The notes beneath the pieces are model-generated. The model saw only the letters and a list, made by a program, of their open reading frames with translations. It made no database searches and was not told the DNA's origin. The translations under genes and the position numbers were made by a program. A DNA stretch of 42,702 bases, from positions 1 through 42,702 of the IMG/VR virus record IMGVR_UViG_3300037245_002170. One strand, 5' to 3'. Source of the DNA: a virus. Numbering within the stretch: position 1 is the stretch's first letter; each line of letters starts with the position of its first letter. Of the stretch, positions 4,182 through 42,554 are shown piece after piece.

Positions 4182-6055
<1,874 letters not shown>

Positions 6056-13283: not shown

Positions 13284-13320
13284 ATAACGATTGAGAAATC
13301 AATCAATGTTCTTTAAAATC
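13284..13320 (+). promoter_or_regulatory. Transcribed leader with boxA-like sequence (P1)
   Basis: The initially transcribed stretch reads ATAACGATTGAGAAATC and is followed by TGTTCTTTAAAA at 13307-13318. The latter resembles the bacterial boxA (TGCTCTTTAACA) bound by NusB/S10 in rRNA operons. The same arrangement follows P3. Confidence 0.55.
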
Positions 13321-13329
13321 TGAATAATT

Positions 13330-14190
13330 TGGGACGTATGGGTTCCAATTTGCCTTCGGGTAAGATAAACTGCGGTAACGTAGTGAAACAGGGTAGCTTT
13401 CTTACAAGTCCTGCCATGGAATTTATTTTTTCATGGACATCTATACAAGCCAAGCTTCTTATAAACTTCACTCCGGTGGAGGATTGGTGGAAGAGCTACA
13501 GGAAGAGGGTAACACCTCACACTAACGGATGATGCCGAGAACACTGAATCAATAGTTCGACATTGAAGAAGCAAAGGGTAGATATACTGTTAGAGTTTGT
13601 TGTGAACGAAAGCGGTGTGTCAAACTTAGTGGTGAAGGAACCAATTAGGTATTCCTGAGTCGTGAAAGTTGATTCAAGTAACTCGACAGGGTGAAAGGGT
13701 ATGTCTCGTAGTGTATTTCTGTTTTGGAAACTTAATGGAAGCAGTTGCTGACTGCACGAGGTGGTAAGTTGCAAATATAGCTCAATTGGTAGAGCAGTTG
13801 TCTAAGAAACAATTGGTTGGTGGTTCAAGTCCATCTCAAAGCAAAAGACGGTCAGCACGGTTGAATGAAAGTGACCTAACACCACTCAATGTGAGGTGGG
13901 TGATGGATTCCCTGCAAGGATGAAATCTATTTGTTAGCAACCATTCATAATATCTTAGCGGATATGAACAGCCCGTAAGGGTTGGTGACGTGAAACGCTA
14001 GTAGAGTAGTTTAACTGGATAGTGGTGAAGCAACCACTTTAAAAAATGCGGTCATGATGTTGACCAGTTTGCCCTTAGTGGGAATTGGTGGATAGTTGAT
14101 TAACGGGTACTCGCAAGGTGTTCGGTACGGTCTAAAAGAAACATCAAGTTGATAGGAGTAATCTCATCCTGTTGATAACATTTTTTGGAA
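13330..14190 (+). ncRNA. Large structured noncoding RNA candidate (GOLLD/ROOL-like class unproven)
   Basis: About 860 bases downstream of P1 hold no convincing gene but many local hairpins. These include a UUCG tetraloop stem (13350-13363), GUAA tetraloop stems at 13369-13384 (ACTGCG/CGTAGT) and 13970-13983 (AGCCC/GGGTT), GCAGT/ACTGC at 13741-13755, and AGTGGT/ACCACT near 14020-14038. Size, tetraloops and position at the head of a phage tRNA array fit the giant ornate RNAs GOLLD and ROOL, which are known from phages near tRNA genes. I cannot confirm class membership, and the exact ends are uncertain. Confidence 0.5.
13771..13842 (+). other. tRNA-like domain inside the large RNA
   Basis: Three arms have canonical tRNA spacing: D-stem GCTC/GAGC (13780-13795), anticodon arm GTTGT/ACAAT with loop CTAAGAA (13797-13813), and T-arm GGTGG-TTCAAGT-CCATC (13819-13835). 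The flanking 7-mers do not pair as an acceptor stem and no CCA follows. The nominal anticodon AAG would be Leu, but the variable arm is too short for Leu. Confidence 0.5.
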
Positions 14191-14435: not shown

Positions 14436-14510
14436 GCTCTTTTAGTTCAATGGATAGAATACCGGAGTACGATCCCGATGATAGGAGTTCGAATCTCTTA
14501 GAGAGCACCA
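14436..14510 (+). tRNA. tRNA-Arg (ACG)
   Basis: The acceptor GCTCTTT pairs with AGAGAGC and CCA is encoded. The anticodon loop GTACGAT gives ACG, read as ICG if deaminated. The anticodon stem has two mismatches at its ends (CCGGA/CCCGA), so the gene may be slightly decayed. Confidence 0.75.
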
Positions 14511-14514
14511 ATTT

Positions 14515-14530
14515 TGATCTTTGAAAAATA
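14515..14530 (+). promoter_or_regulatory. boxA-like sequence between tRNA-Arg and tRNA-Val
   Basis: TGATCTTTGAAAAATA resembles the boxA-like segments found in rRNA operon leaders and spacers and matches the copy at 14993. It lies in the transcribed spacer, consistent with an antitermination site. Confidence 0.4.
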
Positions 14531-14550
14531 GAATACAGAACGATAGAAAC

Positions 14551-14625
14551 GGTGGGTTAGTTCAGCGGTAGAACGTCTGGTTTACATCCAGAATGTCGGG
14601 GGTTCGATCCCCTCACTCATCACCA
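14551..14625 (+). tRNA. tRNA-Val (TAC)
   Basis: A complete cloverleaf is visible: acceptor GGTGGGT/ACTCATC with G-U pairs, D-stem GTTC/GAAC, anticodon arm TCTGG-TTTACAT-CCAGA, T-loop TTCGATC, and encoded CCA. Confidence 0.93.
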
Positions 14626-14631
14626 TTTTTT

Positions 14632-14722
14632 GGAAGTAGATGCATGACGGTGATTGCTACTCATTGCTAATGAGATGGGTTGGAGAAATCCAACTGGGGT
14701 TCGACTCCTCTTACTTCCTCCA
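14632..14722 (+). tRNA. tRNA-Ser (GCT)
   Basis: The acceptor GGAAGTA pairs perfectly with TACTTCC. The anticodon loop TTGCTAA gives GCT. A long variable arm (TTGGA-GAAA-TCCAA) marks it as a class II tRNA, as expected for Ser. CCA is encoded. Confidence 0.92.
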
Positions 14723-14724
14723 TT

Positions 14725-14797
14725 GGGGTGGTAGCTTAAAGTAAAGCGGTTCGCTTGCACCGAATCAGATGCGTGGTCGAACACGTTCACTCCACCA
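14725..14797 (+). tRNA. tRNA-Ala (TGC)
   Basis: The acceptor GGGGTGG/TCACTCC contains the G3-U70 pair that identifies Ala tRNAs. The anticodon loop CTTGCAC gives TGC. The T-arm is unusual: GCGTG/CACGT encloses a six-base loop GTCGAA instead of the standard seven-base TTCGAAT type. CCA is encoded. Confidence 0.85.
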
Positions 14798-14821
14798 ATT
14801 TGAAATAAATGAAATAACAGG

Positions 14822-14850
14822 TTGACTTACTGAAACAAGTCGGGTATAAC
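14822..14850 (+). promoter_or_regulatory. Stable-RNA promoter P2
   Basis: TTGACT (14822-14827) and TATAAC (14845-14850) are 17 nt apart. TTTGAAATAAATGAAA at 14799-14814 lies upstream in the UP-element position. No TGAGAAA leader follows this one. Confidence 0.7.
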
Positions 14851-14936
14851 ATATACATACTTAAGGAACGGATACGCCTCTGATGATACATGCAAACTGA
14901 GTCCGAAATTAAGTTTGAAATAAATGAAACAAATGA

Positions 14937-14965
14937 TTGACAATGATTAACGATTGAGATACATT
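14937..14965 (+). promoter_or_regulatory. Stable-RNA promoter P3
   Basis: TTGACA (14937-14942) and TACATT (14960-14965) are 17 nt apart, again preceded by TTTGAAATAAATGAAA (14914-14929). The leader ATAACGAATGAGAAATT begins 7 nt after the -10 box, and the boxA-like TGATCTTTGAAAATTG is at 14993-15008. Confidence 0.75.
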
Positions 14966-14971
14966 GACAAC

Positions 14972-15008
14972 ATAACGAATGAGAAATTGTTCTGATCTTT
15001 GAAAATTG
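14972..15008 (+). promoter_or_regulatory. Conserved leader and boxA-like element (P3)
   Basis: ATAACGAATGAGAAATT (14972-14988) is nearly the same as the P1 leader and related to the GTAATCAATGAGAAACC leader of four protein-gene promoters in this window. TGATCTTTGAAAATTG follows and resembles boxA. Confidence 0.55.
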
Positions 15009-15215
15009 AATATAGATAAATTGGTTTTAGCCGAAATTACCAATAAGCCGAAAACATGTTGAGTACGTTTAGGTTTGAGTAGGCTAATCTTTTATCAATG
15101 TAGACCACATATGAATGTGAGTCGTATATTGACGGTATGATTCAATCGTCACATATTAGCAATAGAGTTGAGGAAACCTTTTGTTGATTTGATGAATCTT
15201 AAATAATTTTATATC

Positions 15216-15292
15216 CGGTGTATAGCACAGTCTGGTAGTGCGCGTGGTTTGGGTCCACGAGGTCGCAGGTTCGAACCCTGCTACACCGACCA
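15216..15292 (+). tRNA. tRNA-Pro (TGG)
   Basis: The acceptor CGGTGTA pairs with TACACCG. D-stem GCAC/GTGC, anticodon arm CGTGG-TTTGGGT-CCACG and T-loop TTCGAAC are all standard. CCA is encoded. Confidence 0.95.
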
Positions 15293-15603
15293 ATTTGATG
15301 AATAAGTTGTATGGCGCACTTAGTGTAATCTGAAACGATTCCTATTCGTTTATCAACCTCTGATCATCACTAATTTAAATGAGGCTACGGGGCAACATTA
15401 AACTTCCGTTTACCAATTTTGGTTATCGCTTCGGGTTGAGTTCCTAAAGGGAATACTCGGCATCGATGTCTCACAGAAAACAGGACGAAGAGGTGAGATG
15501 CTTCAGATCGTTTATTGATAACCTTTAGTCAGTCGTATAAATGAATACGGTTCCCATTGCGGGAACAGATGTTGGTGTCGATTCCAGCTTGGCGATCAAT
15601 TTC
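15293..15603 (+). other. Gene-free region with structured RNA between tRNA-Pro and tRNA-Lys
   Basis: No coding sequence is seen. GGTTATC (15421-15427) pairs with GATAACC (15517-15523), enclosing GAG-TTCC/GGAA-CTC near 15438-15458 and TCTCAC/GTGAGA (15469-15474 with 15493-15498). This is a compact three-stem RNA of about 103 bases. Just after it, 15535-15598 holds three tRNA-arm-like hairpins (CGTAT/ATACG, GTTCC/GGAAC, TGG/CCA around TGTCGATT) with no acceptor stem, perhaps a decayed tRNA. Confidence 0.5.
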
Positions 15604-15680
15604 GGGTGTGTAGCTCAGTTGGTTAGAGCATCGGACTTTTAATCCGAGGGTCGAGAGTTCGAGCCTCTCCGCACCCACCA
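15604..15680 (+). tRNA. tRNA-Lys (TTT)
   Basis: The acceptor GGGTGTG pairs with CGCACCC. The anticodon arm TCGGA-CTTTTAA-TCCGA gives TTT. CCA is encoded. Confidence 0.95.
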
Positions 15681-15688
15681 TTTTTATT

Positions 15689-15763
15689 GCGCTGTTGGCA
15701 GAGTGGCTTATGCATTGGATTGCAAATCCAAATACAGGTGTTCGATTCACCTACAGTGCTCCA
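15689..15763 (+). tRNA. tRNA-Cys (GCA)
   Basis: The acceptor GCGCTGT pairs with ACAGTGC and the discriminator is U, as is usual for Cys. The anticodon arm TTGGA-TTGCAAA-TCCAA gives GCA. CCA is encoded. Confidence 0.95.
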
Positions 15764-15771
15764 TTTTTATT

Positions 15772-15858
15772 GGAAGGTTGACAGAGTGGTAATGTTCTGG
15801 TCTTGAACACCAGTGGCGGTGAAAGCCGACGAGGGTTCGATCCCCTCACCTTCCTCCA
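15772..15858 (+). tRNA. tRNA-Ser (TGA)
   Basis: The acceptor GGAAGGT pairs with ACCTTCC. The anticodon arm CTGGT-CTTGAAC-ACCAG gives TGA. A long variable arm (CGG-TGAAA-GCCG) is present. CCA is encoded. Confidence 0.94.
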
Positions 15859-15862
15859 TTTT

Positions 15863-15999
15863 GTCGTCAGCTGAATGATAGTGAAACAGATAGCCTTGTG
15901 CAGAAAACTACTATTGAATCATTCTCTCAGATGATACGGGTGTATCATTGATTACAGCAGATATTACGGAGTTTCACTGTCACCACAGAAGCTCCACCA
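15863..15999 (+). ncRNA. Structured RNA unit with possible pseudoknot
   Basis: This 137-base unit between tRNA-Ser and tRNA-Tyr ends in CTCCACCA like its tRNA neighbours but has no acceptor stem that I can match. GAATGAT (15873-15879) pairs with ATCATTC (15918-15924). AGTGAAAC (15880-15887), in its loop, pairs with GTTTCACT (15971-15978) outside, which makes a pseudoknot. ATGATAC/GTATCAT (15931-15948) forms a hairpin. Confidence 0.4.
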
Positions 16000-16006
16000 T
16001 CTTAAT

Positions 16007-16093
16007 GCATAGATAGAGCGTAATTGGTAGCGTCACAGGTTGTAACCCTGTTGCCTTCGGGTCTTGGTGGTTCGAGTCCATCTCTATGCACCA
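16007..16093 (+). tRNA. tRNA-Tyr (GTA)
   Basis: The acceptor GCATAGA pairs with TCTATGC. The anticodon arm ACAGG-TTGTAAC-CCTGT gives GTA. The long variable arm has a UUCG tetraloop, as expected for a bacterial class II Tyr tRNA. CCA is encoded. Confidence 0.92.
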
Positions 16094-16102
16094 TTTTAAG
16101 TC

Positions 16103-16177
16103 TCGCAAGTCGTATAGTGGCATTGCTTCTGGCTGTTAACCAGAAAGACGTTGGTTCGAATCCAACCTTGCGAACCA
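16103..16177 (+). tRNA. tRNA-Asn (GTT)
   Basis: The acceptor TCGCAAG pairs with CTTGCGA. The anticodon arm TCTGG-CTGTTAA-CCAGA gives GTT. T-arm and CCA are standard. Confidence 0.94.
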
Positions 16178-16186
16178 ATTTTATAC

Positions 16187-16263
16187 GGACTCTTAGTTCA
16201 GTTGGTCAGAACGTCTCGCTCATAACGAGGGTGTCGGGGGTTCAAGTCCCTCAGAGTCCACCA
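16187..16263 (+). tRNA. tRNA with CAT anticodon (elongator Met or Ile2)
   Basis: The acceptor GGACTCT pairs with AGAGTCC. The anticodon loop CTCATAA gives CAT. Three intact CAT tRNAs occur in the array; this one has a fully paired acceptor and so is not an initiator. Lysidine modification would convert it to Ile, which cannot be decided here. Confidence 0.92.
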
Positions 16264-16753
16264 TTTTGAAATCATACAATATCTAAGGCGATGTTGCATA
16301 CAGACCAGTAACTATTGAATCCAAACTCTATGAAGAGCTAAGTAATGGAGAGGTGAAAATAGTGCTCCATGAAATCCGTTGAGAGCATACAAGTACGGTG
16401 ACATGTAGAATCGGAATAATTGGCCGAAAATGATGCAAGTGCGGTATGCTAATGAACTGCATTAAATGGTATCTGTGAAAATGGCAATATTTGATTTCGA
16501 TTAATTTAACACAATAAGGGTGTTGGGTACGGGTTATCCACAGTAGTAAGGTAGGTTCGATTCCCACCAACCTTTGGGTTCGATTCCCTTGGAGTGGACT
16601 GAAACTACTTTCGATTTATAGGTACACGGGAAGGAAAATAGTAGAGAAGTGTTGTTAGGTTGATTGATAATGTCACGTAATTCCTAAATTAACTCTAGGG
16701 TCGCCATCTAGTCATGGATAATGATAAATCTACAACCTATCCAATTTAATATA
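16264..16753 (+). other. Gene-free 490-base region with a tRNA fragment
   Basis: I see no gene in this stretch. Near its middle, AAGGGTG (16516-16522) can pair with CAACCTT (16568-16574) with one mismatch. They flank a single stem-loop (GGGTA/TATCC) and a T-arm GTAGG-TTCGATT-CCCAC, a 59-base tRNA-like relic. A second T-arm-like sequence (GGG-TTCGATT-CCC) follows at 16576-16588. The rest is AT-rich with no structure I can defend. Confidence 0.4.
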
Positions 16754-16828
16754 GTCCCATTCGTCTAACGGTTAGGACATCGGACCTTCAATCCGAGAAT
16801 AGGAGTTCGATTCTCCTATGGGACACCA
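16754..16828 (+). tRNA. tRNA-Glu (TTC)
   Basis: The acceptor GTCCCAT pairs with ATGGGAC. The anticodon stem TCGGA/TCCGA encloses CCTTCAA, giving TTC. Position 33 is C instead of the near-universal U. CCA is encoded. Confidence 0.85.
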
Positions 16829-16978
16829 ATTTTGCAGGTTGACCGTAGTGGGTTAAATCTGCCTAAACCGAATGTGGTGTATTGGAAGCACATCACCCCT
16901 CAGTAATCATACTTCACTGGTGTGGTGAAATGGGGAGAAGGATGAGGATTCGAAGTCCGAAACTAGGTTTTGATTATT
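16829..16978 (+). other. Structured spacer between tRNA-Glu and a tRNA-like unit
   Basis: No gene is present. CCCC (16896-16899) pairs with GGGG (16932-16935) around TTCAC/GTGAA (16913-16917 with 16925-16929), and GCAG/CTGC brackets an upstream segment. It continues into the tRNA-like unit at 16979. Confidence 0.35.
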
Positions 16979-17154
16979 TTTGTGGTAGTGTAACGGAATC
17001 CCATAGACGAATTGAGATATCTTTTCGGTAGAGGATCAAAGTATTACAACAGGGGTGCTTCAGTGCAGTCAAAACCAACTAGTTGTGGTTGTAATATCGA
17101 GTAGCACAGGTGGGAAGACCATCTGGTATCGGTTCAAATCCGATCCACAATACA
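16979..17154 (+). ncRNA. tRNA-like unit with about 104-base insert in the D-loop
   Basis: The acceptor TTTGTGG pairs with CCACAAT (6 of 7). TA at positions 8-9 is followed by D-stem GTGT (16988-16991), whose partner GCAC lies at 17104-17107, leaving a D-loop of 112 bases instead of 7-10. The T-arm ATCGG-TTCAAAT-CCGAT is perfect. The anticodon-arm position holds a hairpin CAGGTGG/CCATCTG with no U33. The end reads ACA, not CCA. Confidence 0.5.
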
Positions 17155-17161
17155 TTTTATT

Positions 17162-17246
17162 GCTCGTATGGTGAAACTGGTAAACGCATCAGACTTAAAA
17201 TCTGACGACTTCGGTCTTGTGGGTTCGATTCCCACTATGAGCACCA
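17162..17246 (+). tRNA. tRNA-Leu (TAA)
   Basis: The acceptor GCTCGTA pairs with TATGAGC. The anticodon arm TCAGA-CTTAAAA-TCTGA gives TAA. The class II variable arm and CCA are present. Confidence 0.95.
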
Positions 17247-17251
17247 ATTTT

Positions 17252-17336
17252 AGAATCTCATCGTTGTCAATCAACCCCTTACTTGGTGGTTGAGGCAAGA
17301 GCAGACGTGCAATTGGAGAAATCCAGCGATAGAACA
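17252..17336 (+). ncRNA. Structured RNA unit between two Leu tRNAs
   Basis: ATCGTTG (17260-17266) pairs with CAGCGAT (17324-17330), and inside it TCAACC (17271-17276) pairs with GGTTGA (17288-17293). It is not a cloverleaf and carries no CCA. It may be a small RNA or a processing spacer. Confidence 0.4.
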
Positions 17337-17342
17337 TTTTAT

Positions 17343-17427
17343 GCTCGTGTGGTGAAACTGGTAAACACGCTGGTCTTAGGAACCAGTGCCGTAAGGTTTG
17401 TGGGTTCGACTCCCACCATGAGCACCA
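17343..17427 (+). tRNA. tRNA-Leu (TAG)
   Basis: The acceptor GCTCGTG pairs with CATGAGC. The anticodon arm CTGGT-CTTAGGA-ACCAG gives TAG. The class II variable arm and CCA are present. Confidence 0.95.
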
Positions 17428-17434
17428 ATTTACT

Positions 17435-17775
17435 GGGGGTGTCACGGTTTCGATTGTCATCACAAGGTAATAACTACAAGTAGTGGATGAGCTTCAGGCC
17501 ACTTTAAAAAGGGTTCAACAAACTATAATTGCAGATACTCTAGCAATTGCGGCTTAGTTGTCGCGCACGTAATTAGAAACATTCACGTTCTTTTTATTGT
17601 GTTCCTATTAGTGGATTGACTTACTAGGAAAGACTGGTTGACGTAATCCAAAGGATTTGACTGAAATGAAAGTGTTTCAAAAGAGTGTCAGTACTTCTTT
17701 GAATATTGACTAAACTTGTAAACGTTATACTGGAAGATAGGTAAGACGGGAGTTCGAATCTCCCCACCTCCACCA
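17435..17775 (+). ncRNA. ssrA: tmRNA (transfer-messenger RNA)
   Basis: The 5' end GGGGGTGTCACGGTTTCGA is the standard tmRNA start. The 3' end has T-arm GGGAG-TTCGAAT-CTCCC and acceptor CACCTCC-A-CCA. The acceptor pairs fully with GGGGGTG and contains G3-U70, the alanyl-tRNA synthetase identity pair. A short reading frame at 17531-17557 encodes ADTLAIAA and stops at TAG, giving a typical small hydrophobic degradation tag; the exact resume codon is inferred. The length of 341 bases fits bacterial tmRNA. It would rescue ribosomes stalled on cut or broken mRNAs. Confidence 0.93.
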
Positions 17776-17799
17776 TTTTAAACAACAAAGGAGAAATAA

Positions 17800-18048
17800 A
17801 TGTTTATTGAAGTGTATATGATCCCAGCAAGTGAATGGGGTACAAAGGATAAAAGTAAAGTAAAAGTTGAGGCTAATAAACGAACAGTTAATGTGTCATC
17901 TATTTTACGGGTTCAACCATCAACTAATGAAGCATTGAAGGATCGTGCCGAACTAGTGATGTCTGACAAAGTTCGTTATCACGTTCTTGGGTCATATGAA
18001 GAAGTAATTGCACGGGTTAACAAAGTTGATAATGTTGAACGTGTATAA
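17800..18048 (+). CDS. Small hypothetical protein behind the tmRNA
   Basis: This 82-residue protein has AAGGAG at 17787-17792 as a good ribosome binding site. It contains two lysine-rich strands (KDKSKVKVEANKRTVNV) and a C-terminal VLGSYEEVIARVNKV helix. It is the only well-supported protein gene inside the plus-strand tRNA array, and it lies 24 bases after the tmRNA. No function is recognised. Whether it acts with tmRNA, as SmpB does, cannot be judged: it lacks SmpB motifs and is about half its length. Confidence 0.65.
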   Translation: MFIEVYMIPASEWGTKDKSKVKVEANKRTVNVSSILRVQPSTNEALKDRAELVMSDKVRYHVLGSYEEVIARVNKVDNVERV

Positions 18049-18141
18049 CAGAACCATACTGGATAAGATTAGGTAGTATCTGCAATGGATACTGTAAAAA
18101 ATAGAGTGGGTCAACCACCAGCTTAATAAACTCCAGTTTTC

Positions 18142-18216
18142 GCTGATGTAGCTCAATGGTAGAGCAATGGATTGAAACCCCATGTGTCGTTGGTTCGAAC
18201 CCAACCTTCAGCACCA
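18142..18216 (+). tRNA. tRNA-Phe (GAA)
   Basis: The acceptor GCTGATG pairs with CTTCAGC with one mismatch. The anticodon loop TTGAAAC gives GAA; its stem ATGGA/CCCAT has one A-C mismatch. CCA is encoded. Confidence 0.87.
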
Positions 18217-18227
18217 ATTTTTATAAT

Positions 18228-18374
18228 GCTCGATGTTGTGATGAGGAGGAAAGATTATAATAAGACAGTACATCTTATTCTGACTTCCAATATTTTGTTG
18301 GAGCACACCATCAACAATAAAATTACGTAAACCTATTGTTGAATGGAGGAGATCATACCTCTCATTGAGCACCA
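18228..18374 (+). ncRNA. tRNA-ended RNA unit, 147 bases
   Basis: The ends pair as a tRNA acceptor (GCTCGAT with ATTGAGC), followed by A and CCA. The 5' end resembles the Leu tRNAs of the array. The T-arm position holds GAGG/CCTC with an abnormal loop. Inside are two strong hairpins, AATAAGA/TCTTATT with a seven-base loop and CAACAATA/TATTGTTG, instead of D and anticodon arms. Confidence 0.45.
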
Positions 18375-18625
18375 ATTTTTATTGTCTGTGGTTTGTAGGA
18401 TAACCACAATAGAAAACACCTACCCAATTTAAGACGGTGGTAAAGAAAAACGTTCAATTGATAATGGAAACCGTTGTCAACCATCTCATTACAGTGCCTA
18501 TACCATGGTGCATGACTGGAAGCGGGAATGAGACGAAAAGTTAATTGAATAGGTTCTATGTGATACTAGTTAAATCATGACTTTCTTCGGAAAGTAGGGT
18601 TCAAATCCCTTATTATCATCACCAA
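18375..18625 (+). ncRNA. Structured unit with tRNA-like 3' end
   Basis: TGATAAT (18459-18465) pairs perfectly with ATTATCA (18612-18618), directly after a T-arm TAGGG-TTCAAAT-CCCTT and a variable-arm-like hairpin with a UUCG loop. The RNA ends CACCA with two extra bases before the usual CCA position. The middle can form TTCAATT/AATTGAA around TCTCATT/AATGAGA. No anticodon arm is evident. Confidence 0.4.
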
Positions 18626-18632
18626 TTTTGCA

Positions 18633-18703
18633 ATTAGCATATAGGTATAATGCGATTCCCCAGAGAAGGAGTAGAAGTGAATTCAAACCCACGTTGCATA
18701 TCC
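18633..18703 (+). pseudogene. Decayed tRNA
   Basis: A tRNA-sized unit has a good D-arm (GCAT/ATGC), an anticodon-position stem ATTCC/GGAGT around an eight-base loop CCAGAGAA without U33, and a T-arm with two A-C mismatches around TTCAAAC. The acceptor pairs TGCAA with TTGCA, and CCA is present. I do not assign an amino acid. Confidence 0.45.
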
Positions 18704-18710
18704 ATTTTAT

Positions 18711-18785
18711 TGCCCTATAGTATAACGGTCAGTACAGGAGACTTTGAATCTCTGGGTCACGGTTCGATTCCGTGTAGGGCATCCA
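18711..18785 (+). tRNA. tRNA-Gln (TTG)
   Basis: The acceptor TGCCCTA pairs with TAGGGCA. The anticodon arm GGAGA-CTTTGAA-TCTCT gives TTG. CCA is encoded. Confidence 0.94.
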
Positions 18786-18792
18786 TTTTTAT

Positions 18793-18867
18793 TGCCTTAT
18801 CGTACAACGGTTAGTATGGGAGACTCTGACTCTCTAGATTTCAGTTCGATTCTGAATGAGGCATCCA
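18793..18867 (+). tRNA. tRNA-Gln (CTG)
   Basis: The acceptor TGCCTTA pairs with TGAGGCA. The anticodon arm GGAGA-CTCTGAC-TCTCT gives CTG. It is a diverged duplicate of the neighbouring Gln tRNA, with the wobble base changed. CCA is encoded. Confidence 0.92.
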
Positions 18868-18878
18868 ATTTATAAAAC

Positions 18879-18954
18879 GCAAGTGTGGCTGAGTGGTAAA
18901 GGCGGGTGATTTCCAATCATCTTTTTGCGGGTTCAAATCCTGTCACTTGCACCA
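18879..18954 (+). tRNA. tRNA-Gly (TCC)
   Basis: The acceptor GCAAGTG pairs with CACTTGC. The anticodon arm GGTGA-TTTCCAA-TCATC gives TCC. CCA is encoded. Confidence 0.9.
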
Positions 18955-18961
18955 ATTTTAT

Positions 18962-19074
18962 GCTAGGTTACGCAAGACATAGACTTCCCCAATAGGTATA
19001 CATCTGGATAGCCTTCGGATAAGCGAGAGGTGCAAAACCTTCGATGATTGGTTCGAATCCAATGCCTAGCTCCA
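18962..19074 (+). ncRNA. tRNA-like unit, 113 bases, enlarged D-loop
   Basis: The acceptor GCTAGGT pairs with GCCTAGC (one G-U), the T-arm ATTGG-TTCGAAT-CCAAT is perfect, and CCA is encoded. A D-stem CGC/GCG encloses about 46 bases. The anticodon position holds GAGG/CCTT with loop TGCAAAA, lacking U33. It is either an insert-bearing tRNA or a tRNA-derived RNA. Confidence 0.5.
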
Positions 19075-19152
19075 ATTTAGGTTAAGCTGTTAACCTCTTA
19101 ACATTAAGTTGAAGTATCCACATATATGGTGGATTGATAAATAACACACAAT
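19075..19152 (+). other. Hairpin spacer
   Basis: AGGTTAA/TTAACCT (around 19079-19097) and ATCCAC/GTGGAT (around 19118-19136) form two hairpins in the spacer. No gene is present. Confidence 0.4.
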
Positions 19153-19370
19153 TTGAAGTAGAATAAGTCGATACTGTCACCCTAATAGCTTAAAGGTGAT
19201 GAAAAACATATGAGAGACTCCGCTAGAAGAACGTAATGGACACATGTGATACAAAACAACCAGAACTAGTAAGCAAGCAATGAGGAACAACGTGAAATCC
19301 ATATGGTGAAAATTTCGCCCACCCTACGTGGTGGAGAGTGTATGTAATCCGATAACATACCTTCAATCCA
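19153..19370 (+). ncRNA. Structured RNA with acceptor-like ends, 218 bases
   Basis: TTGAAGT at the 5' end pairs with CCTTCAA at the 3' end (6 of 7), followed by T and CCA and the usual ATTTT spacer. Next to the 3' strand GTATGT/ACATAC forms a T-arm-like hairpin with a nine-base loop. TCACC/GGTGA forms near 19177-19201. There is no cloverleaf, and the assignment is tentative. Confidence 0.35.
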
Positions 19371-19382
19371 ATTTTAAACACT

Positions 19383-19457
19383 TTGCCTGTAGATCAATGG
19401 TTAGATTGCTAGACTGTGACTCTGGAGACTTGGGTTCGACTCCCAACAGGCAACCCA
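19383..19457 (+). tRNA. tRNA-His (GTG)
   Basis: The acceptor TTGCCTG pairs with CAGGCAA and the discriminator is C. The anticodon arm CTAGA-CTGTGAC-TCTGG gives GTG. The base before position 1 is T, so the G-1 that identifies bacterial His tRNAs is not encoded. Confidence 0.9.
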
Positions 19458-19466
19458 TTTATATAT

Positions 19467-19542
19467 GCCAGTATAGCTTTAACGGTAGAGCAACGGTCTT
19501 GTAAACCGAAGGTTGGGAGTTCGAATCTCTCTGCTGGCTCCA
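19467..19542 (+). tRNA. tRNA-Thr (TGT)
   Basis: The acceptor GCCAGTA pairs with TGCTGGC. The anticodon arm ACGGT-CTTGTAA-ACCGA gives TGT. CCA is encoded. Confidence 0.93.
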
Positions 19543-19547
19543 ATTTT

Positions 19548-19623
19548 GCATGATTAGCTCAGATGGAAGAGCACGAGATTTCTAATCTCGAAGTCATAGG
19601 TTCGATCCCTATATCGTGCGCCA
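19548..19623 (+). tRNA. tRNA-Arg (TCT)
   Basis: The acceptor GCATGAT pairs with ATCGTGC and the discriminator is G. The anticodon arm CGAGA-TTTCTAA-TCTCG gives TCT. CCA is encoded. It would read AGA, a codon often rare in hosts. Confidence 0.94.
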
Positions 19624-19626
19624 TTT

Positions 19627-19720
19627 TGAATAACATTAGACCACGGCAACACAAGGAATTCCTGCAATATGGATGTAACAACTTTCGTGGTTCTGTTGAA
19701 TGTGTCCTTGGTGTTATTCA
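19627..19720 (+). ncRNA. Structured RNA closed by a 9-bp stem
   Basis: TGAATAACA (19627-19635) pairs with TGTTATTCA (19712-19720). ACCACG (19640-19645) pairs with CGTGGT (19686-19691) inside it, and AGGAATTCCT lies in the loop. It has no CCA and no tRNA arms. It could be a small RNA released when the flanking tRNAs are processed. Confidence 0.5.
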
Positions 19721-19724
19721 TTTC

Positions 19725-19801
19725 CCCTGATTAGCTCAGTCGGTTAGAGCGTTCGACTCATATTCGAAAGGTCGCTGGTTCGATTCCAGCATCAGGGACC
19801 A
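19725..19801 (+). tRNA. tRNA with CAT anticodon (Met or Ile2)
   Basis: The acceptor CCCTGAT pairs with ATCAGGG. The anticodon arm TTCGA-CTCATAT-TCGAA gives CAT. All pairs are good and CCA is encoded. It could be elongator Met or lysidine-modified Ile. Confidence 0.92.
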
Positions 19802-19828
19802 TTTTAAACAATGATATATTAATCAATT

Positions 19829-19903
19829 TGCGGGTGGGAGGTTCAGTATCTCTCTTGGCTCATAACCAAGCATAAACTGGTGCAAATCCAAGACCCGCTA
19901 CCA
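19829..19903 (+). tRNA. tRNA-fMet-like (CAT)
   Basis: The acceptor TGCGGGT/ACCCGCT has six pairs and a T-T mismatch at 1-72; a 1-72 mismatch is the hallmark of bacterial initiator tRNAs. The body GCGGGTGGGAG resembles bacterial fMet tRNA. The anticodon arm CTTGG-CTCATAA-CCAAG gives CAT but lacks the three G-C pairs of a strong initiator. The T-arm has two mismatches. Confidence 0.7.
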
Positions 19904-19911
19904 ATTTCAAT

Positions 19912-19984
19912 GGGGATATAGCTCAATCGGTAGAGCACTAGCCTGTCAAGTTAGAGGTTGCGGGATCGTACCCCGTTATTCCCG
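19912..19984 (+). tRNA. tRNA-Asp (GTC), 3' end not followed by CCA
   Basis: The acceptor GGGGATA pairs with TATTCCC and the discriminator is G. The anticodon arm CTAGC-CTGTCAA-GTTAG gives GTC. The T-loop ATCGTAC is atypical. CCA is not encoded: the sequence runs directly into CATTTTT. The stop codon of the minus-strand HNH gene lies inside the acceptor region. Confidence 0.85.
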
Positions 19985-20716
19985 CATTTTTAATAATTCC
20001 ACCCTACGTGTTGGTATATCATAGAATCTACACCACTTTCGAATAGAATTACCACTTACACCATATTTTATACCAGCTTGTTCAATATTTGTTGATATTA
20101 TGTCATCTATTAATATATTAACATCAGGTCTTTTGGATATATTCGAGTTTGATACAATTTGAGCACAACTAACACACCGTGTTGATTTTCTATGTATTGT
20201 AGTGTTACAGTCAATACATTTATTGATTTTTCGTTTATGTTTACCACTAAATGTTGATGTTTGGGTGTGGCAGTTAGGGCATATGAATCTTAAATTACAC
20301 ATCCTATTATCGTTATTTATACCGTTTTTGTGATCCAATTGTAATACCAACACATCATCATTCCAAAATGGTAGTTGTCCACATGAATCACATATATATG
20401 GTAACATATCACCATCGATTATACGTTTCTTAATTCGACCACGGCAATATGTTGAATTTTCAATAAAAACACTATCGTCATCTAATCGACACTGTTTTCT
20501 TAGTTGTTCACCATGTTTCTTTAAGTGTATTTTACGGTTTTCATCTAATTTCAAGGTTGAAAGATCATATAAAACTATACGATTTTTAAGTGTTTGCCTA
20601 TTTCCACAACTTCCACTTAACCCTATAGTTTTTAATACATCAACTGATGATGTTGATGTATCCAAAATATGTTGTAATTGTTGTATGCTATATGTATCAA
20701 TTTTACTTTTTCTCAT
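19976..20716 (-). CDS. HNH homing-type endonuclease
   Basis: This 246-residue protein is the only minus-strand gene. Its HNH core is LQLDHKNGINNDNRMCNLRF followed by CPNCHTQT (around residues 124-152), flanked by CDSCGQ and a second CxxC pair (CIDCN, CVSCAQ), a zinc-stabilised arrangement. The C-terminal segment IKYGVSGNSIRKWCRFYDIP looks like a helix-turn-helix for target recognition. AGAGG upstream of ATG 20714-20716 supports the start. Its stop overlaps the 3' end of tRNA-Asp, so it probably entered the array as a free-standing mobile endonuclease. Confidence 0.88.
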   Translation of the reverse strand: MRKSKIDTYSIQQLQHILDTSTSSVDVLKTIGLSGSCGNRQTLKNRIVLYDLSTLKLDENRKIHLKKHGEQLRKQCRLDDDSVFIENSTYCRGRIKKRIIDGDMLPYICDSCGQLPFWNDDVLVLQLDHKNGINNDNRMCNLRFICPNCHTQTSTFSGKHKRKINKCIDCNTTIHRKSTRCVSCAQIVSNSNISKRPDVNILIDDIISTNIEQAGIKYGVSGNSIRKWCRFYDIPTRRVELLKMRE

Positions 20717-20783
20717 TTTTTTAACCTCTTATATATTTATGAACCCACAAGTATTTATACAAAACAGTCACAATACCAATTAT

Positions 20784-20859
20784 AGTCACGTAGCTCAGAA
20801 GTGAGAGCATCTGTCTGATACACAGAGGGTCGGGATTGCAAAATTCTCCGTGACTACCA
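20784..20859 (+). tRNA. tRNA-Ile (GAT)
   Basis: The acceptor AGTCACG pairs with CGTGACT. The anticodon arm TCTGT-CTGATAC-ACAGA gives GAT. The T-arm is weak, with an enlarged loop containing TTGCAAAA. CCA is encoded. Confidence 0.85.
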
Positions 20860-20863
20860 ATTT

Positions 20864-21011
20864 GAGTAAGTAGTATAATGGCAGAACACCATTGATAGTT
20901 TGATCCCTCATTCGCCTAGTATTTCGGCTCATAACCGAAGAACATCGAGTTGATATCAGTAATTCTTGACACATAATGGGGAATTAGGTTCGATTCCTAA
21001 CTTGCTCACCA
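20864..21011 (+). ncRNA. tRNA-like unit, 148 bases, with internal CAT anticodon arm
   Basis: The acceptor GAGTAAG pairs with CTTGCTC, the T-arm TTAGG-TTCGATT-CCTAA is perfect and CCA is encoded. A D-arm-like GTATAATGGCAGAAC follows the 5' acceptor strand. A perfect anticodon arm TTCGG-CTCATAA-CCGAA lies in the middle, but about 30 extra bases separate it from the D-arm and about 45 from the T-arm. It could be a tRNA with two inserts or a recombined tRNA. Confidence 0.5.
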
Positions 21012-21020
21012 ATTTCAATT

Positions 21021-21095
21021 AGGGGCGTAGTACAACGGTTAGTATTGGGGATTCCAAATCCTTTGATTTCGGTTCGAATCCGAACGTCCCTGCCA
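21021..21095 (+). tRNA. tRNA-Trp (CCA)
   Basis: The acceptor AGGGGCG pairs with CGTCCCT and the discriminator is G. The anticodon loop TTCCAAA gives CCA. The 3' CCA is encoded. Confidence 0.93.
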
Positions 21096-21104
21096 ATTTC
21101 AAAT

Positions 21105-21179
21105 GCATCATTAGCTCAATGGTAGAGCACCACGTTGCCAACGTGAAGGTTGATGGCTCAACTCCGTCATGATGCACCA
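21105..21179 (+). tRNA. tRNA-Gly (GCC)
   Basis: The acceptor GCATCAT pairs with ATGATGC. The anticodon loop TTGCCAA gives GCC. The T-loop is CTCAACT, lacking the usual TTC. CCA is encoded. Confidence 0.88.
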
Positions 21180-21205
21180 ATTTATCTATATTCAATTCAG
21201 TTTTC

Positions 21206-21287
21206 GCACATATGGTGAAACTGGTAGACACGCTACTTTCAAACGGTAGTGTCTTATGACGTGTGGGTTCGAATCCCTCTATGTGCA
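21206..21287 (+). tRNA. tRNA-Leu (CAA), CCA not encoded
   Basis: The acceptor GCACATA pairs with TATGTGC and the discriminator is A, followed directly by ATTTTT. The anticodon stem CTACT/GGTAG encloses TTCAAAC, giving CAA. The class II variable arm is present. It is the last tRNA of the array and would need CCA addition by the host enzyme. Confidence 0.88.
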
Positions 21288-21310
21288 ATTTTTATTAAAG
21301 GTGGGTGTTT

Positions 21311-22027
21311 ATGTTTATGAAAAGGTTAATTAGCGTATTGTTGGTACTCATCAGTGTATCAATTGTTTCACATAGTAAGCGTATCACATATTGGGATAGT
21401 ACATCAATCGGTTGGGAAACTCTCGAATATGATACCGAAATGTTTGAATTACATTTGTCTACCAATCTAACATCAGATGATTGGTATAAAATTGGTTTAA
21501 TACCACTAAACATAACTAATTATTTCCACAATGCAATACTACCACAAGCATTTTTCCGAATCACACCCCAAAATGAACTTTTGAAACTACCTGTACCCAG
21601 TTCAATATTTAGCAATGGTGTGTGGGTATCGGATGGACATGACTGGGAATTACGTGATAGAAATCATTGGAATGTAACAACCAATGTACCTGAATTGTTG
21701 GATATAGGAGATGTCACCACATTGGTCACAGATTACACACCACCATCAAATATAGTAACCACTCATGGTACGGTTGGTCTACCAATAGAACGATTTGCAA
21801 TACCATTAGTCTACGGTACAAATTACGTACACTGTTGGGATGATCGATCACGGTCATGGTTGGTAAAGGAGATTTATGATCTCAGTGGTTTTTATGAATT
21901 TCAGGTTCCAGCATGGAATCAATGGTTTTGGGTTGGTGTGTTCAATGAGGATGCTGATGAATATGTGTATGGGAAATGGATTGGTCATTTCTTAATATCA
22001 AAATCTGAAATTAATATAAGGTACTGA
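21311..22027 (+). CDS. Secreted protein of unknown function
   Basis: This 238-residue protein begins with a clear signal peptide (MFMKRLISVLLVLISVSIVSHS, cleavage likely near residue 22). The mature part is rich in Trp and beta strands, with two loosely similar halves each containing YWD/CWDD and WxxG motifs (residues about 26-60 and 175-225). It is probably exported to the periplasm or envelope. ATG 21311 is chosen over GTG 21305 and ATG 21317; AAAGGTGG precedes it. No family is recognised. Confidence 0.65.
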   Translation: MFMKRLISVLLVLISVSIVSHSKRITYWDSTSIGWETLEYDTEMFELHLSTNLTSDDWYKIGLIPLNITNYFHNAILPQAFFRITPQNELLKLPVPSSIFSNGVWVSDGHDWELRDRNHWNVTTNVPELLDIGDVTTLVTDYTPPSNIVTTHGTVGLPIERFAIPLVYGTNYVHCWDDRSRSWLVKEIYDLSGFYEFQVPAWNQWFWVGVFNEDADEYVYGKWIGHFLISKSEINIRY

Positions 22028-34532: not shown

Positions 34533-34838
34533 ATGGATGAAAAAGTAGAAAAATCAAAATACCTCGTTATTGAATCGAAGGTTGATCGAAATATTGTAGC
34601 TGTTGGTGAACGTCGATCTTACCGATACTTCGGTGACGGGATAAACTCAGAGGTGATTTCCAACATCCTGAACGGTGGAAAAATCAACTGGGATGATAAG
34701 ACCTTCAAAATCGTTGAAGGGAAGTTGGTTAAATTTAAAGATACAATTCTCGAACCAGATGAGTATAATGTAGTCTACAAAGGGTTCAATGAAAACCAAG
34801 CTGAGAAAGCTTATGAAAAACGAGGTATTACAAAATGA
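34533..34838 (+). CDS. Hypothetical protein ahead of RNA ligase
   Basis: This 101-residue protein is the first gene after promoter copy C and overlaps the RNA ligase by 4 bases. It has a mixed strand-helix pattern (KYLVIESKVDRNIVAVGER). No family is recognised, but coupling suggests a role linked to the ligase. Confidence 0.6.
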   Translation: MDEKVEKSKYLVIESKVDRNIVAVGERRSYRYFGDGINSEVISNILNGGKINWDDKTFKIVEGKLVKFKDTILEPDEYNVVYKGFNENQAEKAYEKRGITK

Positions 34839-35908
34839 GTGAAACAATCGAAAACGTGTTGAGTGAAACATTCTCAGAAGAACAAAAACAAGCAATGGTT
34901 GAAGTATTTAAAGGTGATGGTACTGGTGATTTCACTAAGTTCAAATCCATTGAAAATCATTACCGTGGTAAGTTCATCAACGATACATTTGAATATTACC
35001 CAGAGTATATGACGTGCTCATATATCAATACTGAAAAAGCTGATGGTGCAAACTTTCAATTTAAATTTACCACATTGGATGATGGTTCAATTACACTTTC
35101 ATATGGTAAACGTACTTCACTGCTTGACATGAGTGATAAATTCTTTGGTTACCAAGAAGTTGTTACTGGTGATCGATACACCGAATTCACTGAAATGATT
35201 TTTGAATTTATGCGTGACTTCGAACATCGTGAAGTAATCGTGTATGGTGAACTTATCGGGAGTAAGATCAATAACCGTATTGATTATGGTGATGGGAAGA
35301 AAGTTCTATTCTTTGATATCTCAATTGATGGGTTCTACGTAACTCAACGTCAATTCTTCGAGTTCATGAATTCAAAAGAGTTTGATGATATCACCATTCC
35401 AATCACGGGTATCTATGATACTTTTGATGAAGCAATGGAAGCTGATGTTGAAAACGTTCACACGTTGATCAATCCTGATGCTGATCCAGAAAATGATAAC
35501 TCATACATTGAGGGTGTTGTAATCAAACCGTATGATGTCATCGTAACGAACAAAGATGATCAACAGGTTCTGTTTTACGTGAAACATAAATCTGATCGGT
35601 TTGCCGAAAAGATGAAAGTTCGGAAACATAAAACACCAGCTGTGATCAACCCAGAGGTTCAGAATGCACAGGACGTGTTTGCATCATACCTAACCAAGAA
35701 CCGTTTGATTGGTATCTTCTCTAAGATGGGTGAGATCGAAACACCGAAAGATATGGGTCAATACATCAAAGCGATGTCAGCTGATGCACAAGAGGACTTC
35801 CTGAAGGATAATATGGAACTGTTCATGGAACTTACGGATAAACAACGTAAGTTAATCTTCAAGGTTGCTGGTAAGGTTGTCAGTAAAATGTTGCAGGAAT
35901 ATTTGTAG
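34835..35908 (+). CDS. RNA ligase, Rnl2-like
   Basis: This 357-residue nucleotidyltransferase has the adenylated lysine K68 in NTEKADGANF (motif I), VYGELIG (motif III), EGVVIKP (motif IV) and YVKHKSDRFAEK (motif V). The order and the KxDGANF form match the Rnl2 family, which seals nicks and breaks in RNA. With the encoded tRNA set it could repair cut tRNAs. The C-terminal 90 residues are helical and may bind RNA. Confidence 0.87.
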   Translation: MSETIENVLSETFSEEQKQAMVEVFKGDGTGDFTKFKSIENHYRGKFINDTFEYYPEYMTCSYINTEKADGANFQFKFTTLDDGSITLSYGKRTSLLDMSDKFFGYQEVVTGDRYTEFTEMIFEFMRDFEHREVIVYGELIGSKINNRIDYGDGKKVLFFDISIDGFYVTQRQFFEFMNSKEFDDITIPITGIYDTFDEAMEADVENVHTLINPDADPENDNSYIEGVVIKPYDVIVTNKDDQQVLFYVKHKSDRFAEKMKVRKHKTPAVINPEVQNAQDVFASYLTKNRLIGIFSKMGEIETPKDMGQYIKAMSADAQEDFLKDNMELFMELTDKQRKLIFKVAGKVVSKMLQEYL

Positions 35909-38956: not shown

Positions 38957-39108
38957 TGAAACAATGTGTTAAAGTCAACTGTGGTTACGGTAATTCATAC
39001 CTGTCGTATCAGCGATGGGTTCCACTTGAAAAAGTGTGGTGGAATATGGGTACATGGGATGGTGGATTTTGGAAAGTGATCACAGAAGGTGAATATTATG
39101 AAAATTGA
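38956..39108 (+). CDS. Small hypothetical protein
   Basis: This 50-residue Trp-rich protein overlaps the previous stop by one base and the RNA ligase start by 11 bases. Confidence 0.5.
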   Translation: MKQCVKVNCGYGNSYLSYQRWVPLEKVWWNMGTWDGGFWKVITEGEYYEN

Positions 39109-40273
39109 TTTTAAAGACGTTGACTTAGAAAACTTCATCATAAAGGATGGTTTATTCTGTGGTATTCCAGCTAAGTTGGTTTGTCCACAACATATCGGAT
39201 GTCATTGGACACAGGACAACAAAAATTTCCGCTCTTCAATTTGGAGTGAAGATGGTGAATTGTTATCAGCTGGTTTTCCAAAGTTTCCAAACTTGGGAGA
39301 GAACCCAGAAGTATTCCCAGTCCCTACATCATTGGACGGTGCAACCATCATTGATAAGATGGATGGGTCACTGTGTATTGTAGACATGGTTAATAATAAA
39401 CTGTCGATGCGTACCCGTGGTACATTCACATATGAAACAATGCAGAATGCTGAAGACTTTAAAGGTTGTCAGGAAAAGTACCCTAAAATTTCTGACTGGA
39501 TGAAGTCACATCCTAATATCACTTTGATGTTTGAAATCACAACACCAAATCTACGGATCGTGTTGAATTATGGTGATGTGCCTGATTTGACTCTTATTGG
39601 TGGTATACGCAAGGGTGACTACACTTTGATATCTCAAGACGTTTTAGATATTATCTCTGATGATATCGCTGTTAAACGTCCAGTAAAGTATACTGCCGAT
39701 AGTGTAGATGAGTTGATTGATGTGATGAAGGGTATGAAGGGTATCGAAGGGTGTGTATTGTACACCCAGAATGATCAGGTACTTCACAAGATCAAGAGTA
39801 TCGAATACATCAACCTACATTACCTGAAGTCGTCGTTGGGTGAAACGAAGCTGGTTGATTTAATTGAATCACTTGACTACATGTTTTTCCCTATGTTCAA
39901 AAAATACATCACCGATAAGTTTGATCACGAATGTTGGAAGTCGATTGAAAAGCGAACTAAGGAAATTTACGGGTTGTATGATCTGTATGTTGATGGGTTC
40001 CAGTGGTCGTTTAATGTTCTGTTATCTATTATGGAAAACAATGAATGGACTATTAAGGATAACCGTGGAGATATTGCACGGTTCATGAACACGGGTTGGA
40101 TCAATCCTAATATTGCATTTGAACATAGAGAAAGTATTGATAACACATTCAAAGATTTATGTGGTGATTACATCCCGCTGATCTTCATGAAACTTGATGA
40201 TAAGTTTGATTGGAAGTCTGATAAAACAAGACGTTGGATGAAGAATATGATTATCAAAGGGTTGGATGCTTAA
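39098..40273 (+). CDS. RNA ligase, T4 Rnl1-like
   Basis: This 391-residue protein has the adenylated lysine K87 in IIDKMDGSLCI (motif I, Rnl1-type KxDGSL). LMFEITTPNLRIVLNYG (motif III/IIIa) and IEGCVLYT (motif IV) follow, and LHKIKSIEYINLHYL supplies motif V lysines. The C-terminal 130 residues are helical, as in T4 Rnl1, where they confer tRNA specificity. T4 Rnl1 rejoins tRNAs cut by host anticodon nucleases. ATG 39098 follows AGAAGG. The gene overlaps the phosphoesterase by 8 bases. Confidence 0.85.
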   Translation: MKIDFKDVDLENFIIKDGLFCGIPAKLVCPQHIGCHWTQDNKNFRSSIWSEDGELLSAGFPKFPNLGENPEVFPVPTSLDGATIIDKMDGSLCIVDMVNNKLSMRTRGTFTYETMQNAEDFKGCQEKYPKISDWMKSHPNITLMFEITTPNLRIVLNYGDVPDLTLIGGIRKGDYTLISQDVLDIISDDIAVKRPVKYTADSVDELIDVMKGMKGIEGCVLYTQNDQVLHKIKSIEYINLHYLKSSLGETKLVDLIESLDYMFFPMFKKYITDKFDHECWKSIEKRTKEIYGLYDLYVDGFQWSFNVLLSIMENNEWTIKDNRGDIARFMNTGWINPNIAFEHRESIDNTFKDLCGDYIPLIFMKLDDKFDWKSDKTRRWMKNMIIKGLDA

Positions 40274-41883: not shown

Positions 41884-42048
41884 ATGATCAATATAGAAGA
41901 TGCGTGTGTTAATATAACGTTTATCGATGACCAGAAAGTTTCATATAAACGATCTAAAAACAAAGAATCGATGTTACAGAAGATATTTGAACACATCAGT
42001 GACACCACTGAGTTAACGATTAAAGAAGTTAAGGAAATTTTGGAGTGA
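41884..42048 (+). CDS. Small hypothetical protein
   Basis: This 54-residue protein follows the promoter and a GAGGAATATAATC ribosome binding region. It is followed two bases later by the kinase gene. Confidence 0.5.
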   Translation: MINIEDACVNITFIDDQKVSYKRSKNKESMLQKIFEHISDTTELTIKEVKEILE

Positions 42049-42050
42049 TA

Positions 42051-42554
42051 ATGTCAAAGAAACCAGTTAAAATGTTCGTGCTTGTTGGACTTCCAGCAAG
42101 CGGTAAAAGTACAGTAAGAGATGTTCTAGCAAAACACCTATCCAAGCTTGGTCTTGCATACACCATCGTTTCACCTGATGATATTCGGGGTGAACTATGT
42201 AATGGTGATGTGACTGATCAAAGTCGAAACAAACAAGTTTTTGAACTAGCACATGACCGACTGAATAAAAACCTTAAGGGTGGTCGTTCAGTAATCTTTG
42301 ATGCAACCTGTGTTGATCTTAAGACTCGTAGACAACTGATTAGAATTGCCGATAGATCGAAAGCTGGTAAAGTTGCTGTCTGGATGGATACATCTCTTCG
42401 GGTATGTAAACAAAGAAACAGTAAACGTGATCGGGTTGTCCCTGATTTTGTATTCGATAAGATGAAACGTAAATATAAAGAACCAACAATTGATGAGGGT
42501 TTTGATTCGATTATCCGTGTTGGTAAGAAAACTGTATTGACTAATGTGATTTAA
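42051..42554 (+). CDS. P-loop kinase, polynucleotide-kinase-like
   Basis: This 167-residue protein has Walker A GLPASGKST (residues 13-21), SPDDIRGELC in the position of the substrate-binding DD(I/L)R of polynucleotide kinases, and SVIFDATCVDLKTRR with a lid-like RNSKRDRVVPD arginine cluster. It resembles the kinase domain of T4 PseT but lacks a phosphatase domain. It would phosphorylate 5' ends of RNA or DNA and could feed the two RNA ligases. Confidence 0.75.
   Translation: MSKKPVKMFVLVGLPASGKSTVRDVLAKHLSKLGLAYTIVSPDDIRGELCNGDVTDQSRNKQVFELAHDRLNKNLKGGRSVIFDATCVDLKTRRQLIRIADRSKAGKVAVWMDTSLRVCKQRNSKRDRVVPDFVFDKMKRKYKEPTIDEGFDSIIRVGKKTVLTNVI

Follow-up and report, generated by a model that had tools for sequence, protein, structure and literature searches.

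We identified a complete, full-length tmRNA gene at positions 17435-17775 (+ strand) of the DNA analyzed here (the window). The window, 42,702 bases long, is an entire IMG/VR record that is classed as linear and is therefore probably a fragment. tmRNA rescues ribosomes that have become stuck and adds a tag to the unfinished proteins on them, and the first-pass annotation of the window had proposed that a complete gene for it sits within a phage tRNA array. Two independent methods bear this out at the same coordinates. ARAGORN called exactly 17435-17775 (+) as a one-piece tmRNA gene (ssrA) of 341 nt, with the tag ADTLAIAA* encoded by nucleotides 97-123 of the gene. The Rfam tmRNA model (RF00023), with which a search had been proposed as a check, matched the gene end to end (model positions 1-374) with 112.8 bits and an E value of 1.9e-43, where the gathering score is 47 bits, and agreed with ARAGORN on both gene ends. 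This match is no tRNA artefact, because RF00023 gives the window's ordinary tRNAs no more than 17.4 bits. A permuted tmRNA was considered and rejected, the permuted model scoring 27.5 bits on an overlapping stretch, below the cut-off of 47. We likewise rejected a false ARAGORN call overlapping tRNAs, since the window tmRNA gene has zero overlap with any other gene. Such a false call seems to be the case in Maribacter phage Panino, where the annotated tmRNA (PP540027.1, 27557-27889; L120) overlaps two tRNA genes. As a single sequence, the window tmRNA folds with modest stability (z -1.6).

The tRNA-like ends, the G3-U70 pair, and the short tag frame that the first-pass annotation had listed are all present in the sequence. 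The tRNA-like domain comprises a 7-bp acceptor stem, a T arm, a D-like loop, and an encoded CCA, with no anticodon arm. Pairing of the 5′ acceptor strand (GGGGGUG, 17435-17441) with the 3′ part of the gene (CACCUCC followed by the discriminator A and the CCA at 17773-17775; 17765-17775 in all) was recovered by script, as was the T arm (GGGAG-UUCGAAU-CUCCC, 17748-17764). The alanine identity pair G3·U70, read from the sequence, joins positions 17437 and 17769. In the upper P2 helix, UACAAGU at 17475-17481 pairs perfectly with ACUUGUA at 17714-17720. The tag frame called by ARAGORN (17531-17557) reads GCA GAT ACT CTA GCA ATT GCG GCT TAG; GCA is the resume codon, the encoded peptide ADTLAIAA ends hydrophobic-Ala-Ala, and the TAG stop lies in the loop of helix H5 (17548-17553/17560-17565).

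The first-pass annotation had named missing pseudoknots as one observation that would speak against the gene; we found PK1 together with probable PK2 and PK4. PK1 (17482-17517) is located upstream of the resume codon and consists of stem S1 (17482-17486/17499-17503) and stem S2 (17488-17494/17511-17517). Taken alone, it has a simple stem score of 22.1, which ∼4 to 5% of shuffles of the same stretch also reach. A pseudoknot of the same topology in the same place, built from different letters, occurs in all five phage tmRNAs compared (those of the window and of the contigs G003, G008, G011, and G017), with a combined p of ∼4e-4; for G003 and G011, where ARAGORN gives no tag, the end of the compared stretch was set by eye. 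This comparison was made by script, as MAFFT alignments of the five full-length tmRNAs and of the PK1 regions were unusable for pair counts. Across the whole region 3′ of the tag, no pseudoknot score was exceptional when set against shuffled sequence. Within it, PK2 (17566-17616; S1 17566-17573/17596-17601 with a 2-nt bulge, S2 17581-17586/17611-17616) and PK4 (17660-17703; S1 17660-17664/17688-17692, S2 17676-17681/17698-17703) are weak on their own and PK3 was not made out. Both PK2 and PK4 have counterparts with other letters in the G008 tmRNA, that of PK2 in an equal relative place, and the PK4 region also allows a competing pairing.

The closest relative of the window is a 31.5-kb contig (G002, L020; the sister contig), whose UvsX is 86% identical and whose tRNA order is the same as far as tRNA-Leu(tag). 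The same tmRNA begins at the corresponding position in the sister contig, which ends 61 bases into the gene; Rfam calls these 61 bases a truncated tmRNA (E 3.5e-4). They lie in a stretch that is ∼87% identical between the two phages, and within them neither the upper P2 helix nor either PK1 stem has any change in its 5′ strand. Reading the tmRNA sequences of G003, G008, G011, and G017 showed G3·U70 in each, making five of five with the window. The G008 tag is ADNTELALAA, which reads like ADTLAIAA lengthened by two residues. G003, a distant relative on a 374-kb phage contig (L012, L116), has a tmRNA and its own SmpB; its tag frame, read by eye, runs for ∼35 codons and ends ELEFA. Beyond these, blastn of the window tmRNA against phage records returned short matches only, mostly at the T-arm end, a tag-based pattern search of viral contigs found no relative, and a search with the NAD-dependent ligase found no further relatives.

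The tag had also been described as phage specific. We searched 84,980 bacterial and archaeal genomes with a degenerate pattern covering any DNA encoding of exactly ADTLAIAA plus a stop and obtained 0 matches, so the tag is phage specific as far as that collection goes; for the same reason, neither a donor nor a host can be named.

The gene sits in a dense run of ∼28 tRNA genes (14436-21287), all array genes being on the + strand. Of these tRNAs, 26 were called by ARAGORN and two by Infernal with Rfam only, namely tRNA-Ala(tgc) at 14725-14797 and tRNA-Ile(gat) at 20784-20859, both with anticodons read by eye; counting these two, the array covers all 20 amino acids. Nearly all of its tRNAs have an encoded CCA end followed by an AT-rich spacer. 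Directly upstream of the tmRNA, separated by a 7-nt spacer, is tRNA-Leu(tag) (17343-17427, ARAGORN). Downstream, 24 nt past the tmRNA CCA, an 82-aa ORF with an AGGAG ribosome-binding site begins (17800-18048, +), for which PHROGs, Pfam, and the phage records gave no match. A scan of 14709-21500 on the + strand turned up no terminator-like site, which makes a common precursor transcript likely.

The window phage is uncultured, contractile-tailed, and distantly T4-like, with a gp15-type tail sheath stabiliser, UvsX, a DnaB-type helicase, and an NAD-dependent DNA ligase. Cultured-phage records are remote, the best UvsX among them being ∼32% identical to that of the window. The window also encodes a phage GroEL of 538 aa (4439-6055, +), which has many relatives in viral contigs. 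Downstream of the array, the same fragment carries one or more calcineurin-like phosphoesterases, and the window holds three further genes for RNA-repair enzymes on the + strand: an RNA ligase with the T4 Rnl2 C-terminal domain and a KADG nucleotidyl-transfer motif (34835-35908; PF18043, PF09414), an RNA ligase of the T4 Rnl1 type with a KMDG motif (39089-40273; phrog_562, PF09511), and a polynucleotide-kinase-like P-loop kinase (GLPASGKS; 42045-42554; PF13671). As a point against linking them to the tmRNA, RNA-repair enzymes without a tmRNA are common in T4-like phages. Phage T4 uses its ligase and kinase to mend tRNA-Lys after cleavage by the host nuclease PrrC, and phage tRNAs and the T4 ligase counteract host tRNA cleavage (PMC10264068 and its references). 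Together, the 20-amino-acid tRNA set, the two RNA ligases, and the polynucleotide kinase make a role in translation under an RNA-cleaving defence plausible, and the link from the tmRNA to RNA cleavage is plausibly strengthened by the ligases, the kinase, and the phosphoesterases. Such company would suit a phage of RNA-cleaving cells, as circumstantial context and not as proof.

That the phage supplies its own ribosome rescue, as the first-pass annotation had it, is supported for the tmRNA itself but not for the whole system. SmpB (PF01668) was not found in the window (G000) or its two nearest contigs (G001 and G002), all of them fragments, whereas 10 control bacteria were positive; the host SmpB is therefore the likely partner. 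An RNase P protein was also sought in the window and not found.

We think it likely that the gene produces a functional phage-encoded tmRNA which is processed from the array, charged with alanine, and bound by SmpB, and which frees stalled ribosomes with a phage-specific tag. The gene, its anatomy, its 5′ part in the sister contig, and its gene company are observed; from the tmRNA family we infer its expression, charging, SmpB partner, tagging, proteolysis, and benefit. The tmRNA and the surrounding tRNAs would most likely form one precursor transcript, from which host tRNA-processing enzymes would cut the tmRNA at its tRNA-like ends. Host AlaRS would then charge it with alanine via G3·U70, and SmpB, most likely the host's, would bind it. 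The charged tmRNA would enter ribosomes stalled on broken mRNAs and release them with the addition of a short phage-specific tag, Ala plus ADTLAIAA, whose hydrophobic-Ala-Ala end may serve as a signal for ClpXP-type proteases. The phage would probably gain by keeping ribosomes free while mRNAs and tRNAs are being shortened by nucleases of the host or the phage in the course of infection, with the tmRNA acting beside the RNA-repair enzymes and the tRNAs for all 20 amino acids.

We weighed this reading against three others. The phage tmRNA could mainly interfere with the host, competing for SmpB and stalled ribosomes with the tmRNA of the host and putting in place of the host tag one that SspB and other host adaptors would not recognise, which would leave the tagged proteins intact or redirect them. 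The tag does lack an AANDENY-like SspB motif, its coding sequence is absent from the 84,980 genomes searched, and host tmRNA is inhibited by a molecule like the tRNA-like-domain-only tmRNA of mycobacteriophage DS6A (PMC4131195, PMC11915505). However, a pure decoy would have no need of the complete tag frame and PK1 that are kept here, and the end of the tag is still hydrophobic-Ala-Ala; we regard interference as the main role as unlikely.

It is more improbable that the phage picked up a bacterial tmRNA gene through recombination, for instance where the gene served as an integration site, and carries it without selection. Although tmRNA genes are known integration sites and prophages hold partial copies of them (PMC9004378), the window gene is full length, the sister contig retains its start at the corresponding position in a stretch that is ∼87% identical, and no integrase was seen among the proteins searched. 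Least probable, and very much so, is that the tmRNA tags truncated host proteins so that their amino acids feed phage synthesis, a role proposed for methylophage Melnitz (PMC9004378); nothing in the window data supports a preference for host proteins. We therefore retain ribosome rescue as the preferred reading; judged from its sequence, the tmRNA gene looks real and probably works.

The first-pass annotation had further stated that few phages have a tmRNA. As a rate this stands, with tmRNA genes in 402 of 18,146 phage genomes (PMC9004378), but their presence in tRNA arrays is well established. Phages with ssrA include Bxz1, Catera, and Rizal (PMC4131195), mycobacteriophage tRNA arrays hold a tmRNA and also a structured RNA of ∼430 nt (PMC5966550), and Stenotrophomonas phage Marzo was announced with 23 tRNAs and one tmRNA (PMC8928761); within the stretch of the Marzo record that we examined, no tmRNA is annotated. 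tmRNA has also been reported in huge phages (PMC7162821).

Compared with the bacterial one-piece ssrA (RF00023), the window gene has the same ends, G3·U70, T arm, P2, PK1, tag frame, and stop codon in the H5 loop; it differs in being phage encoded, in a tag of 8 aa where 10 is the most frequent length (PMC11915505), and in the absence of this tag from the genomes searched. Like the mycobacteriophage arrays (PMC5966550, PMC4131195), the window has a single tmRNA in a large tRNA array, which can carry a large structured RNA, but the phage here is a divergent T4-like one that has GroEL and lacks close relatives in culture. With the huge phages (PMC7162821) it shares a phage tmRNA; G003 resembles them in having both tmRNA and SmpB, whereas no SmpB was seen in the window fragment, and the G003 tag frame is much longer than that of the window. 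Melnitz (PMC9004378) is likewise a myophage with a complete tmRNA, but its tmRNA is two-piece, permuted, and riboswitch-linked, while the window has a one-piece gene within a tRNA array. As tmRNA in phage tRNA arrays is already known, the window gene alone leaves the picture of phage tmRNAs unchanged. It adds a well-supported tmRNA for a phage lineage without close cultured relatives, and its company, which includes GOLLD, RNA-repair genes, and tRNAs for all 20 amino acids, makes the purpose of phage ribosome rescue testable.

The GOLLD RNA precedes the array. RF02032 matched 13703-14170 (+) with 98 bits and an E value of 2.4e-25, below the gathering score of 150, and the sister contig gave the same result. 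Between the two sequences, five pairs in 13703-14170 are changed on both sides, a number reached by 0 of 100 shuffles; in 13310-13700, 14 pairs are changed on both sides versus 2.9 expected (z -6.4). This suggests that 13310-14170 (+) is a divergent, apparently full-length GOLLD RNA of ∼860 nt with a degenerate tRNA (13771-13843) inside. A tRNA inside other GOLLD RNAs has been described (PMC6582537), and GOLLD forms RNA cages of unknown function (PMC12286853). G008 (L122) is likewise a GroEL-bearing phage contig and has a tmRNA and GOLLD ∼14 kb apart. We see a small chance that GOLLD, the 20-amino-acid tRNA set, the tmRNA, and the conserved RNAs of the array form a single unit that protects translation; its structured and long tRNA-like RNAs might then act with the tmRNA or decoy host RNA-cleaving defences.

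Conservation between the window and the sister contig extends to several array gaps that hold no tRNA. The gap between tRNA-Glu and tRNA-Leu holds two structured RNAs on the + strand with no Rfam family, both with compensatory changes in the sister contig. The RNA at 16833-16975 has a z of -4.2 against shuffled alignments, and the RNA at 16976-17157, with a tRNA-like acceptor stem and T arm around ∼100 extra bases, has a z of -2.7, where coding controls range from 0.4 to -1.9; because shuffling kept single columns, not dinucleotides, and only two sequences were compared, both remain candidates. A borderline tRNA call (17082-17152) overlaps the second. A conserved gap of ∼357 nt (16268-16625, +) has two consecutive T-arm-like hairpins, with covariation no clearer than in coding controls. 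The 96-nt gap between two tRNA-Leu genes (17247-17342, +), 94% identical in the sister contig, folds as a four-way junction; it has no Rfam match and one relative in viral contigs. Four long tRNA-like genes of 113 to 174 nt (18228-18374, 18457-18630, 18962-19074, and 20864-21011, +) have matching acceptor stems, T arms, and CCA with extra middle sequence; none is called by ARAGORN or covered by a relative. Finally, a 48-nt element at 18383-18429 of the window and 18502-18549 of the sister contig is 96% identical and lies in different array gaps, as if mobile.
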